DNA of 64,000 nt from Mesorhizobium sp. B2-1-1 (GTDB taxonomy: Bacteria > Pseudomonadota > Alphaproteobacteria > Rhizobiales > Rhizobiaceae): positions 4,595,501-4,659,500 of the forward strand of contig NZ_CP083954.1 of the NCBI RefSeq assembly GCF_006442975.2. Reading direction: 5' to 3'. Positions 36,069 to 53,887 of this stretch are shown here, one piece after another. A program made the position numbers and the translations under genes. The notes beneath the pieces were generated by a model. It was not told where the DNA came from. It was given only the letters and a program-made list of their open reading frames with translations, and did no database searches. How positions within the stretch are numbered: the first letter of the stretch is position 1; each line of letters starts with the position of its first letter.

Positions 36069-36150
36069 GTTTGTAAACTAGCGCCGACATCCTCACTGCG
36101 CCTAGCCCGGGCTGGCCAGTGGCGACCGAGGCACGCGGGATAGGTCGGCG

Positions 36151-36200
36151 CTCCACCCCACCCGACCCTGCGGGCCGACCTCCCCATCTAGGGGAGGCGG
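36151..36200 (-). repeat. Palindromic interspersed repeat copy A
   Basis: On the minus strand this reads CCTCCCC-TAGAT-GGGGAGG followed by TCGGCCCGCAGGGTCGGGTGGGG. It is the same two-hairpin pattern as the copies around 51.9 and 52.4 kb. It lies alone between pdxH and the enoyl-CoA hydratase gene, which converge. A role in transcription termination or mRNA stability is possible. Confidence 0.75.
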
Positions 36201-36209
36201 GGGGCCGAA

Positions 36210-49576: not shown

Positions 49577-51877
49577 TTAGCCCGCGATCTTGGAGAAATC
49601 CGCAACCTGGTCGGTGGCCGCGCGGATGCGGGCGAGCAGCGCCAATCGATTGGCGCGCACGGCCTGATACTCATCATTCACGAGAACGCGTTCAAAGAAT
49701 GAATCAACCGGTTCGCGCAAAACGCTAAGCGCCAGCATGGCGGCGGAAAAGTCTTCGTTTTGAATCGCTTCGCCGGCTTGCCTCTCGGCCTGATTCACCG
49801 CCGCGAACAGCGATTTCTCGGCATCCTCGCGGAACAGCGCCGGCTCAACGGTTTCGGCGATCGCCGTTTTCTTCTTCTCCTCGGCAGCCAAAATGTTGGC
49901 GGCGCGCTTGGTGCCGGCAAGCAGGTTCTTGCCGTTCTCGGTGTCGAGGAAAGTGCCGAGCGCCTCGACGCGGCGTACGATCTGCAGCAGGTCATCCGAC
50001 TGCGGCGTGATGACAGCGTCGATCAGGTCGTGGCGAGCGCCCTGATCACGCAGGTAGACTTTCAGGCGGTCGTGGAAGAAGGCGAGGAGGTCTCGGACCT
50101 GATCCGTACTGCCAACCGTGTAATGCATGGAGGCGCTGCCGAAGATCGTCGTCAGCCCCAGTCGAATGCGGTTCTCGACCAAAATCCTCACCACGCCGAG
50201 CGCAGCGCGACGCAGCGCGTAAGGATCCTTCGAGCCGGTCGGTTTTTCATCGATGGCCCAGAAGCCGACAAGCGTATCCAGCTTGTCGGCGAGCGCGACG
50301 GCGATCGACACCGGATCGCTCGGCACGTAATCGGACGGCCCCTGCGGTTTGTAGTGCTCTTCGATGGCTGCCGCCACGGACGGATGCTCGCCCTGGAGCA
50401 ACGCGTATTTGCGGCCCATGGCGCCCTGCAATTCGGGAAACTCGCCGACCACTTCGGTGGTCAGATCGGCCTTGGCGAGAACCGCGGCGCGAGCGGCGAG
50501 CGCGGGATCGGCGCCGACGGTCGGCGCCAGTTCCTGCGCCGATCGCTTGATCCGCTCCACCCGTTCGCCCTGCGTGCCGAGCTTGGCGTGGAAGGTCACA
50601 TTGAGATGGTCGAGCCGGGCCATGCGTTGGTCGAGCGGCTTCTTCAGGTCGAGCCCGAACTTTTTCGCCGACGCTTCGAGCTCGGCGAGATCAGGCAAAT
50701 CGCCTTGGTCGGTCGTCCAGAAATAGAGCGCGTCGGAGAGGCGCGCGCGCACCACCTTGCCGTTGCCCTGGGCGATCTCCTTGCCGCCGTCGCTCGCCTC
50801 GATGTTGGCGGTGAGGATGAAACGGTTGGAAAGTTCGCTGATCTCCCCCCTTGAGGGGGAGATGCCCGGCAGGGCAGAGGGGGTCGTCTCACGTGGAGCG
50901 CCGGCGTCCTCTGTGTGCGAAAGGGAGTCGCGTCCCGTCGTGCCGACCCCCTCTGTCGGCTTCGCCGACATCTCCCCCTCGAGGGGGGAGATTGGGCGCG
51001 ATGTCACAAAGCACTTCTGGTTGGCGCGGATGGTCAGGCGGATCACCTCGGCCGGAATGGCCAGGAAAGCGTCTTCGAACGCGCCCATCAGCACGACAGG
51101 CCATTCGACCAGCCCGGACACCTCTTCCAAAAGCCCCTCGTCCTCGACCAGATCCAGCCCGTTGGCGAAAGCGAGATTGCGGGCATCGGCAAGGATGATC
51201 TCCTTGCGCCGGTCTGCGTCGAGCACGACCTTGGCCGCTTCCAGCTTGCTTACATAGTCGTCGAAGCGGCGCACGGTGATTTCGCCGGGCGCGTGAAAGC
51301 GGTGGCCGTAAGTGACATTGCCCGAACGGATGCCGTCGATCTCGAAATCGACCACGACCGGCTCCTCGGTTTCCGGACCGAAGGTGCACAGGATCGATTG
51401 CAGCGGCCGCACCCAGCGCAGCGAGCCGGGCTTGGCCGAGGCCGGCCCCCAACGCATCGATTTCGGCCACGGGAAATTGCGGATGATGCCAGGCACCAGT
51501 CCGGCGATGATCTCTTCCGCCGCCCTGCCCGGCTTCGAGACATGGGCGACGTAGAAATCGCCTTTCTTCGGGTCGGAATGGACGTGTGCCTCGGCGACCG
51601 AGGAAAGCCCGGCCTTGCGCAGGAAGCCCTGGACCGCCTGTTCCGGCGCCGTCGTCGACGGCCCCTTGATCTCCTCGCGGATATCCTTCGAGCGCGCGGT
51701 CAGGCCCCTGATGTCGAGCGCCAGTCGCCGCGGTGTCCAGTACTCGCGCGCCGCCTCGTAGGTCAGCCCTGCCTCGACCAGGCCGTCGGTCAGCATCTTC
51801 CTCAGATCGCCCGCCGCCTTGCGCTGCATGCGGGCCGGGATTTCCTCGGAGCGAAGTTCTAGAAGCAGGTCAGGCAT
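49577..51877 (-). CDS. glyS: Glycyl-tRNA synthetase beta subunit, with in-frame repeat insertion
   Basis: This is a 766-residue beta chain of the alpha2-beta2 glycyl-tRNA synthetase. It begins [25 protein letters not shown], and shows [34 protein letters not shown], a family signature, near residue 530. Between KCFVTSRP and [15 protein letters not shown] about 50 residues (296-346) are encoded by an inverted pair of palindromic repeats. Without it the length would be the usual one for rhizobia. The frame stays open through it, so the protein is probably functional with a surface loop. Unlike the usual order, a nuclease gene separates it from glyQ. Confidence 0.96.
50841..50992. repeat. Inverted pair of palindromic repeats inside glyS
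   Basis: Two copies of a two-hairpin element face each other: 50841-50888 starts ATCTCCCCCCTTGAGGGGG and continues with a second hairpin and AGAGGGGGTCG. 50943-50992 is its reverse complement in type, with CGACCCCCTCTGTCGGC and ending ATCTCCCCC/GAGGGGGGAGAT. The outermost 23 bases match in 22 positions. About 55 bases lie between. The whole is read as glyS sequence without stop, coding for [16 protein letters not shown] and related peptides. Confidence 0.88.
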
Positions 51878-51887
51878 GGATAGCTCC

Positions 51888-51943
51888 TCACCCTCCCCTC
51901 GATGGGGAGGGTCGGCGCGTCAGCGCCGGGGTGGGGTGGCGGC
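51888..51943 (+). repeat. Palindromic interspersed repeat, left flank of the DUF559 gene
   Basis: On the plus strand it reads CCTCACCCTCCCC, TCGAT, GGGGAGGG, then GTCGGCGCGTCAGCGCCGG and GGTGGGG. It lies 10 bases upstream of the glyS start, so on the glyS transcript it may fold in the leader. It is oriented towards the DUF559 gene and mirrored by the copy at 52360-52412. Confidence 0.82.
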
Positions 51944-51952
51944 GTCTCAATC

Positions 51953-52345
51953 TCAAGCGCCTTCGGCGTCTGACGGGCGAAGGTCTGATTTTCGTTCTTC
52001 CACCGCCGCATAGATCGTATCGAGCACGGAATCCAGTTCGTTTTTGATTTCGTGGTTCCAGAAACGGATGACATGATAGCCCTGACTTTCGAACCATTTT
52101 GTCCGAATTTCGTCGTGTCGTTGCTGACGATCGAAACTGTGGTGAGCGCCGTCCACCTCGACGATCAGCTTCAGGCGGTGCGAGATGAAATCAGGGAAGT
52201 AAATACCGACCGACGCCTGCTTGCGAAATGAGTGCCTTTCCACCGGGATGCGCCATAGGTGCCGCCACAAGATGCGTTCTTCGTCGGTCATCGCCGCACG
52301 AAGCCGTTGCACCGACCGCAGTTTGAACCGATCGAGTTTCGGCAT
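51953..52345 (-). CDS. DUF559 (Vsr-like) endonuclease-fold protein
   Basis: In this 130-residue protein with the PD-(D/E)XK-like DUF559 domain, RLRAAMTDEERILWRHLWR, HSFRKQASVGIYFPDFISHRLKLIVEVDGAHH and WFESQGYHVIRFWNHEI match the family in order, including the conserved Asp and Glu of the metal site (FPDF, VEVDG). DUF559 proteins resemble Vsr mismatch endonucleases and usually are uncharacterised. The start at 52345 is taken. An open frame continues upstream through a palindromic repeat. The gene is bracketed by two inverted repeats of one family and splits glyQ from glyS. Confidence 0.88.
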   Translation of the reverse strand: MPKLDRFKLRSVQRLRAAMTDEERILWRHLWRIPVERHSFRKQASVGIYFPDFISHRLKLIVEVDGAHHSFDRQQRHDEIRTKWFESQGYHVIRFWNHEIKNELDSVLDTIYAAVEERKSDLRPSDAEGA

Positions 52346-52359
52346 GAGAAGTCGCGCTG

Positions 52360-52412
52360 TCACCCCCACCCGCCGCTTCGCGGCGACCTCCCCCATCCAG
52401 GGGGAGGTAAAG
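52360..52412 (-). repeat. Palindromic interspersed repeat, right flank of the DUF559 gene
   Basis: On the minus strand it reads ACCTCCCCC, TGGAT, GGGGGAGGT, then CGCCGCGAAGCGGCG and GGTGGGGG. It is the same element as at 51888-51943 in inverted orientation, so the DUF559 gene lies between inverted ends about 525 bases apart. It sits immediately upstream of the DUF559 start. Confidence 0.82.
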
Positions 52413-52413
52413 A

Positions 52414-52574
52414 GGCCATAGCAACTCGGCTGGCCGCTGTCACCCTTTCCAGAAATTTTGGGCGTCCTGTCGGGACGGGATGATCCCACCCGTCCTTGGA
52501 TCAAAGATTTCCATGAACCGAACGCAGCGCTGAAGCGACCCACGCTCAGGCAGAGAGCTATTGGCTGAACGACC
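52414..52574. other. Spacer upstream of the DUF559 element, nothing recognised
   Basis: Together with the adjoining small reading frame, this fills a 343-base gap between the repeat and glyQ. Short frames exist on both strands (for example minus-strand 52440-52670), but none shows a recognisable domain, ribosome site or conserved motif. It may be the promoter region for the DUF559 gene and for glyS. Confidence 0.4.
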
Positions 52575-52756: not shown

Positions 52757-53701
52757 TCAGGCCGCCAATCCGCCGGCCTGCGTCTTCAAGAACGCCTCGC
52801 CACAGGCTTTCGCCAGATTGCGCACGCGCAGGATATAACTCTGCCGCTCGGTGACGGAGATCACGCCGCGCGCGTCGAGCAGGTTGAAGACGTGACTGGC
52901 CTTGATGCACTGGTCGTAGGCGGGAAACACCATGCGGTGCACAGGCAGATTGTCGTTCGATGCGGGCGCACCGGCATCGAGCAGTGCCTTGCATTCGGCC
53001 TCGGCATCGTCGAAGTGGCGCAGCAGCATCGTCGTGTCGGCGTATTCGAAATTGTGACGCGAATATTCCTGCTCGGCCTGCAGGAAGACATCGCCGTAGG
53101 TGACCTTGTCGGCGCCGTCGCGGCCGTTGAAATTGAGGTCGTAGACATTGTCGACGCCCTGCACATACATGGCCAGCCGTTCCAGACCATAAGTGAGCTC
53201 GCCCGCAACCGGCGCGCATTCGATGCCGCAGACCTGCTGGAAGTAGGTGAACTGCGACACCTCCATGCCGTCGCACCAGCATTCCCAGCCAAGGCCCCAG
53301 GCGCCCAGCGTCGGGCTTTCCCAATCGTCTTCGACAAAGCGGATGTCATGCAGCAGCGGGTCGATGCCGATCGCCGCCAAAGAGCCGAGATAGAGCTCCT
53401 GCAAGTTGGGCGGATTGGGCTTCAGGATCACCTGATACTGGTAGTAGTGCTGCAGCCGGTTCGGATTCTCTCCGTAGCGGCCGTCCTTGGGGCGGCGCGA
53501 AGGCTGGACGTAGGCGGCGTTCCAGCGCCTCGGTCCAAGCGCCCGCAGCGTCGTGGCCGGATGGAAGGTGCCGGCACCGACCTCCATGTCGTAGGGCTGG
53601 AGGATCACGCAGCCATAGTCCGCCCAGTAATTGTGCAGAGTCAGGATCAGCCCCTGAAAGGAGCGGCTGGGATGCATATGGGCGGGGATTTCAATCGTCA
53701 C
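52757..53701 (-). CDS. glyQ: Glycyl-tRNA synthetase alpha subunit
   Basis: This catalytic alpha chain is about 314 residues. [47 protein letters not shown] is the diagnostic N-terminal segment, with [32 protein letters not shown] following. The GTG at 53701 is chosen because it gives [17 protein letters not shown] at 53677 is equally possible, and the ORF is open to 53749. It attaches glycine to tRNA with the GlyS beta chain, encoded a kilobase downstream after an intervening DUF559 element. Confidence 0.95.
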
Positions 53702-53887
53702 GGTGGCCTCGGCTGCAAGGGCTGACTTGCGGCCCCGTCCTAGAGACACGGCGGCGAAGCGTCAAGCAAGGCGCGGGCGTCGCGAGGCATGTCGAAAGCT
53801 TTGCGAGCGGCTGGCCCATTGCCGGCGATGAGCACGTGCCTTCTGGTGAACGCTCACAACTCCGTCTCGCCAGACAACAGGTCAGCC

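Follow-up and report, generated by a model that had tools for sequence, protein, structure and literature searches.

Introduction

In the REP/RAYT systems, in which repetitive extragenic palindromes (REPs) are paired with REP-associated tyrosine transposases (RAYTs) and which include REPtrons, REPINs and the TIRtrons of Di Nocera 2013 (PMC3733652), one nuclease gene lies between inverted palindromic repeats. The same arrangement is present in a stretch of 64,000 nucleotides from Mesorhizobium sp. B2-1-1 (the window), in which two facing two-hairpin units enclose a gene for a DUF559 protein between glyQ and glyS. Further points of likeness are the many gene-less inverted pairs and the repeat families apparently particular to each enzyme clade; the differences are that DUF559 is a PD-(D/E)XK nuclease of the Vsr type, whereas a RAYT is an HUH tyrosine transposase, and that a G-rich third strand in mirror orientation is part of the DUF559 repeats. 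RAYT genes, like those of DUF559, are mostly inherited in place.

To our knowledge, no Vsr or homing enzyme has been tied to a genome-wide repeat family, and the BoxC-type triplex repeats, which occur across Bacteria, have had no known engine since the 1990s. With Vsr and the EDxHD homing endonucleases DUF559 shares the fold of its domain, and with the BoxC/PIT/TM motifs (PMC4666352) its flanking repeats share the design of the unit. Triplex formation in solution has been reported for an E. coli motif. In that 2015 survey, Table 1 includes sequences from E. coli that belong to the CCCTCTCCC, GGGAGAGGG and GGGTGAGGG type, some of them in close inverted pairs; the E. coli motifs are always intergenic, and no mobility gene is described around the E. 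coli sites. In contrast, most of the DUF559 genes tested here are flanked by inverted units, the tail of many units is preceded by an additional hairpin and one inverted pair lies inside glyS. Among the open-licence papers listed in our searches, none linked DUF559 or PF04480 to palindromes, BoxC, PIT or REP.

We propose DUF559 as a strong candidate for the long-missing enzyme by which BoxC-type repeats are kept or spread. It is probably the partner nuclease of these repeats, in the role that RAYTs have for REPs, so that gene and repeats together would form a full copy of a REP-like system.

Results and Discussion

DUF559 genes between inverted repeats

The two facing repeats that were placed at 51888-51943 and 52360-52412 by an earlier inspection of the DNA (the sequence-only reading) are real and extend a few bases further (Table 1); they are units of about 60 bp, mutually inverted, with an alignment score of 45. 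Flanks were tested by local alignment of the 300 bases upstream of a gene with the reverse complement of the 300 bases downstream, and when this test, with its 300-base arms, was slid along the window, the threshold was reached by three of 1262 placements, all on the DUF559 gene. The genome holds seven DUF559 genes, five with inverted repeats on both sides, which belong to several families but with the left and right repeats of the same family, and two with units on the upstream side only. The pattern CTCCCCN{2,10}GGGGAG occurs 190 times on one strand of this genome, and the reversed pattern once; many of the listed places form inverted pairs with a spacing of about 89-97 bases. Ten gene-less pairs, from 30 loci returned, are ~160-180 bp long and fold as long hairpins, the two most alike being 85% identical.

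The arrangement is not confined to this genome. Inverted flanks were found at 93 of 140 Mesorhizobium DUF559 loci (distal sequence, 600-900 bases away, 1/139; shuffles 0), at 47 of 69 other alphaproteobacterial loci (distal 0/67; shuffles 0) and at 49 of 75 named loci from several phyla (distal 0/68). Around the named loci, five of 2083 background placements passed, one of them being the DUF559 gene of L303. Chance as the source of the inverted flanks is excluded by the distal, shuffled and sliding controls. The other alphaproteobacterial loci (70 in all) were sampled from the listed places independently of their flanks, 30 as chosen by the search program and 40 taken in list order; the named loci are the best 80 of 513 in an alignment search, of which 76 were testable and L297, which contains a run of N, was left out. 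The named loci lean to strong matches, and so do the genus loci and the glyS loci used below, in each case the 30 of highest score. Passing loci carry the names Bradyrhizobium, Rhodopseudomonas, Sphingomonas, Variovorax, Lysobacter, Xanthomonas and, for one of three, Luteimonas, together with metagenome assemblies labelled Thiobacillus, Planctomycetota, Desulfobacteraceae, Gastranaerophilales (two of three) and Chloroflexi or Dehalococcoidia, labels that are open to binning errors. The test was failed by several other Chloroflexi loci and by those of Fulvimarina, Jiella, Microvirga, Haemophilus and Legionella.

Design of the flanking unit

Each unit of the window has an outer pyrimidine/purine hairpin, a second hairpin and a G-rich tail on the side of the gene; in these repeats generally, the tail often follows such an additional hairpin. 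A simple rule could decide 106 cases, in 99 of which the tail was on the side of the gene, and left 34 further cases undecided. One flank or both had a pure pyrimidine/purine hairpin within 300 bases of the gene at 134 of 141 Mesorhizobium, 61 of 70 other alphaproteobacterial and 74 of 80 named loci, compared with 11, 0 and 3 in distal sequence. When the tail was compared with the purine arm in 334 flank hairpins, many of them from orthologous loci, the match was 0.897 in mirror orientation, 0.805 in direct orientation and 0.719 after shuffling, with the mirror match better than the direct one in 193 hairpins, worse in 21 and equal in 120. The bases opposite A in the tail match were A (384), T (239), C (39) and G (12). 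Both units of the window combine a pyrimidine arm with a purine arm and a mirrored third strand, and we therefore assign the flanking repeats, as judged from their letters, to a putative intrastrand-triplex design of the BoxC/PIT/TM kind. A looser triplex test did not separate true tails from shuffled ones (Mesorhizobium, 125 vs 113 and 122 of 134; other alphaproteobacterial, 60 vs 56 and 57 of 61; named, 69 vs 67 and 59 of 74), because it allowed one mismatch and many offsets. REP palindromes have a GTAG or CGTC tag at their end; the units inspected here terminate in the G-rich tail.

The DUF559 element has the terminal inverted repeats by which a miniature inverted-repeat transposable element or an insertion sequence is recognized. 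Inspection by eye at two sites (glyQ-glyS and glyS) revealed no target-site duplication, with about 20-30 bases replaced instead.

Co-occurrence and matched sets

Of 385 alphaproteobacterial genomes, 33 with weak DUF559 matches (E above 1e-20) were excluded. At least five copies of CCCTCYCCCN{2,10}GGGRGAGGG were present in 63 of the 92 genomes with a clear DUF559 gene, compared with 13 of the 260 without. The sequence-only reading had named repeats as abundant without DUF559 as the outcome that would count against it, and the repeats are instead much rarer there. Among 33 families containing both states, the genomes with DUF559 had the higher repeat number in 25, the lower in five and an equal one in three (p=3e-4), and it is through this family comparison alone that genome size and GC content were controlled. 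Within the genus, the numbers of DUF559 genes and of repeats were correlated (Spearman 0.615, 146 genomes). Seven Mesorhizobium genomes without DUF559 had 5, 85, 5, 2, 69, 54 and 76 copies, a median of 54 vs 191; because such genomes hold up to 85 copies, the repeats can outlast the gene.

Gene and repeat also vary together in kind. Distances between proteins and between their repeats were correlated (Mantel r 0.672, n=87, none of 2000 permutations as high), and remained so with one locus per context (r 0.649, n=22, none of 5000 permutations), which suggests that each clade of DUF559 goes with repeat families of its own. The repeat core of clade 3 had a median of 59 copies in 25 genomes with a clade-3 gene, compared with 12 in 10 genomes without an intact one (p=8e-5), and a non-cognate core did not differ by clade-3 gene state in the 35 complete genomes (p=0.53); DUF559 fragments weaker than E 2.1e-25 were excluded in 34 complete genomes. 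The REP/RAYT-like partnership proposed by the sequence-only reading is thus supported by flanking and by co-occurrence, and the repeat-spreading activity that it also proposed is one that we infer.

The DUF559 protein and gene

The gene between the repeats had been read as encoding a DUF559 protein of 130 residues, and this assignment holds, with a score of 105.7 bits against Pfam PF04480 (gathering cut-off 20.6). Residues E23, D52 and E63-x-D65-G are invariant across 19 aligned DUF559 sequences, and the domain matches the Vsr/EDxHD homing-endonuclease fold along its length (1cw0, 3r3p), the closest solved folds being NGO0050 and the homing endonuclease I-Bth0305I. The DUF559 genes are under purifying selection.

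The fold invites a repair or defence role, in which a Vsr-like nuclease would remove damage or breaks at triplex repeats, or repair T:G mismatches, and repeat-rich genomes would keep the gene, with the flanking units acting as regulators or insulators. In a 2026 study (PMC12907096), the Caulobacter DUF559 protein VsrA is proposed to be a mismatch endonuclease and is induced with the DNA damage response, and the G-rich tail here lies close to start codons. However, inverted repeats of matching families on either side are more than a regulator would need, and neither the polymorphism of single sites nor a copy that has lost the gene but kept both ends (see below) is expected of a repair enzyme, so that we regard this role as quite unlikely.

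Between sites, the DNA identity of DUF559 copies does not exceed 88.4%, and the 141 Mesorhizobium loci represent only 27 flanking contexts. A recently jumping DUF559 gene is not supported by this best between-site identity. Because of the low identity and the few contexts, the gene appears to be mostly inherited in place, with the gene-less repeats as the numerous part. The mobile role suggested by the sequence-only reading therefore survives as an insertion and as a partnership with repeats, and not fully as a mobile gene. Two DUF559 genes about 1.1 kb apart on one contig were seen in G004 (C24), G071 (C2), G124 (C174), G127 (C21) and G128 (C15), where L045 and L060 lie.

Filled, solo and empty sites

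Thirty glyQ-glyS intervals, compared by eye and by pattern, comprised 10 with the gene, two with a remnant, eight with a solo unit (in one case truncated at the end of a contig) and 10 with none. The inference that the unit is an insertion between glyQ and glyS is borne out by the many empty or solo-repeat genomes, and the adverse case of a DUF559 gene here in all relatives without repeats did not arise. The gap between the two genes, glyQ stop codon included, is 882 bases here vs 368-555 in 18 measurable relatives without a DUF559 match; the DUF559 gene therefore widens the gap, and glyQ and glyS do not abut even without it. Six of the ten empty sites have nearly one sequence across the junction and the other four have diverged. 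At the filled site about 22-33 bases of the empty-site sequence are gone, with no target duplication. On the glyS tree the state of the site changes many times, with at least four changes of DUF559 on well-supported branches, and loss is therefore frequent at this site, where any single change may have been a gain or a loss.

Two other sites were examined in relatives. At the site of L003, inspection by eye showed six relatives without the repeat, four with a single hairpin, eight (L370-L377) with three-unit clusters that contain an inverted pair and no gene, and one (L378) with a gene-deleted copy in which both ends are kept. In L379 (1827 bases) at the same site, the inverted pair encloses a gene that looks, by eye, like an IS110-type transposase. 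At the site of L006, measurable in 36 of 37 genomes, 20 have 51-85 bases, two have 145 and 171, seven have DUF559 (547-562 bases), one has 575 bases with no DUF559 match, and six (L392-L397; two inspected by eye, and all six similar) have about 850 bases in which a gene for a TetR-type regulator replaces DUF559. In L397 the TetR-type gene stands beside a degraded unit.

Such presence and absence at fixed sites would also be expected of site-bound homing, in which DUF559 would cut element-less alleles and be copied in by gene conversion, the repeats marking the ends or stopping resection. The closest folds, the 27 contexts for 141 loci, the limited between-site identity and the several presence changes on the glyS tree are all consistent with homing, but it leaves unexplained that repeat number tracks DUF559 genome-wide, that each clade varies jointly with its own repeat family and that gene-less pairs occur at new sites such as that in glyS. 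We consider homing unlikely.

RAYT genes and E. coli ycjD

The Y1 (RAYT) transposase PF01797 had no match in the genome of the window and was present in 25 of the 146 genus genomes; RAYT as the driver is therefore rejected for this genome. By the same flank test, none of eight RAYT loci in the genus had an inverted flank, so that these loci are of no use as a positive control. The absence of Y1, the sole transposase family searched, from this genome and 120 others in the genus also bears on the view of DUF559 as a passenger, in which the units would be moved by another transposase or by replication slippage and the gene would be cargo caught between two units. The persistence of units in genomes that lack DUF559 is compatible with such a view, and one pair encloses the IS110-type (by eye) transposase gene of L379, but like cargo in matching repeats across phyla is not expected from chance trapping, and we find the passenger view very unlikely.

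The DUF559 gene of E. coli K-12, ycjD, is accompanied on one side only by a BoxC-like unit, which lies about 165 bases downstream and is missed by the exact-match triplex finder; there is no inverted repeat on both sides of ycjD (score 20). In the one ycjD-less E. coli strain examined, the gene neighbourhood at the site was different, with no clean empty site.

Proposed mechanism

As to how the repeats might be moved, we tentatively suggest a route that we consider quite possible, in which DUF559, a stand-alone nuclease of Vsr fold, would read the folded triplex or hairpin, rather than a linear site, and the repeats would be copied through repair. The nuclease would recognize the folded unit, most likely as single-stranded DNA at the replication fork or in supercoiled DNA, and would cut at the folded unit or at the target. 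During repair of the break, an inverted pair or, less often, one unit would be copied to a new location, where some 20-30 bases would be lost in exchange and the target would not be duplicated. Gene-less pairs would be the non-autonomous progeny of this process, and solo units its decay products.

Several observations weigh against a partnership of DUF559 with these repeats. About a third of the DUF559 loci have no inverted pair. The correlation of clade and repeat comes from likeness within clades, with r -0.17 for pairs of protein distance above 0.35 (3184 pairs), and the cognate count of clades 6/5b showed nothing, only two of 35 genomes being without these genes. Four of the seven DUF559-less Mesorhizobium genomes hold 85, 76, 69 and 54 repeat copies, and at least five copies occur in the 13 class genomes without DUF559 noted above; conversely, G031 and G130 in Mesorhizobium have DUF559 with five or fewer copies, and among the 92 DUF559-bearing genomes of the class, 29 contain fewer than five copies of the single subfamily counted. 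The history of the glyQ-glyS site may be mostly loss. Of 5426 E. coli genomes, 5377 contain a sequence like the unit near ycjD (blastn, E up to 10), but only 3365 contain ycjD itself. In addition, Caulobacter VsrA is interpreted by others as a mismatch-repair enzyme (PMC12907096).

If the partnership of DUF559 with BoxC-type repeats is real, it ties a large unexplained family (YcjD in E. coli) to repeats that are among the oldest unexplained families (BoxC/PIT), in matched sets across phyla, and would constitute a class of DNA mobility without an HUH, DDE or recombinase enzyme, with a range from E. coli to rhizobia and, should the metagenome assemblies hold, to Planctomycetota and Chloroflexota. 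Two questions, what spreads the repeats and what DUF559 does, become testable. The partnership is offered as an alternative to DUF559 as a plain mismatch-repair enzyme, and the two are separable at the bench. It might also supply a reason for the link of such repeats to genome instability.

The locus in the window and the insertion inside glyS

The features of the locus are listed in Table 1. On the minus strand the order is glyQ, unit, DUF559, unit and glyS, and the outer end of the glyS-side unit lies six bases ahead of the glyS start codon.

Table 1. Features of the glyQ-glyS region; positions are those of the window.
Feature	Position	Strand	Remarks
Complete unit-DUF559-unit element	51884..52414	-	In many relatives missing, or a solo unit left
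DUF559 (PF04480) gene, 130 aa	51953..52345	-	ATG at 52345, stop codon 51955-51953
Two-hairpin unit, glyS side	51884..51944	+	C-arm hairpin, second hairpin, G-rich tail toward gene
Inverted unit copy, glyQ side	52355..52414	-	Tail toward gene
glyS, flanking gene	49577..51877	-	
glyQ, flanking gene	52757..53749	-	
Gene-less inverted pair inside glyS	50842..50990		Strand not assigned; related unit, family of DUF559 genes L001, L002, L007 of this genome

A search of Rfam with the 5 kb around the gene and 20 related loci gave sub-threshold matches only, nearly all to microRNA models. One was a weak whalefall-1 match at 52362-52410 (18 of 37 bits), and a named RNA family for the repeats was rejected.

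The inverted pair inside glyS adds a net 48 codons in frame, with some 20 bases replaced and no duplication. The other 29 glyS genes compared have the short version, without the pair, which suggests that it is a private and fresh gene-less insertion. It resembles the Rickettsia palindromic elements inside proteins.

Hairpins of like pattern were seen elsewhere in or near glyS in six relatives (L069, L079, L080, L082, L090 and L096), and perhaps mark a second insertion site in glyS. Five loci (L069, L071, L087, L088 and L095) have an extra stretch of about 115 bases with a different, GC-rich hairpin, located after a duplicated glyS start and just before the matched start; from its sequence, this is probably another type of insertion, which duplicates the 5' end of the gene. 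Finally, a lone unit of like design lies at about 36150-36205 of the window.
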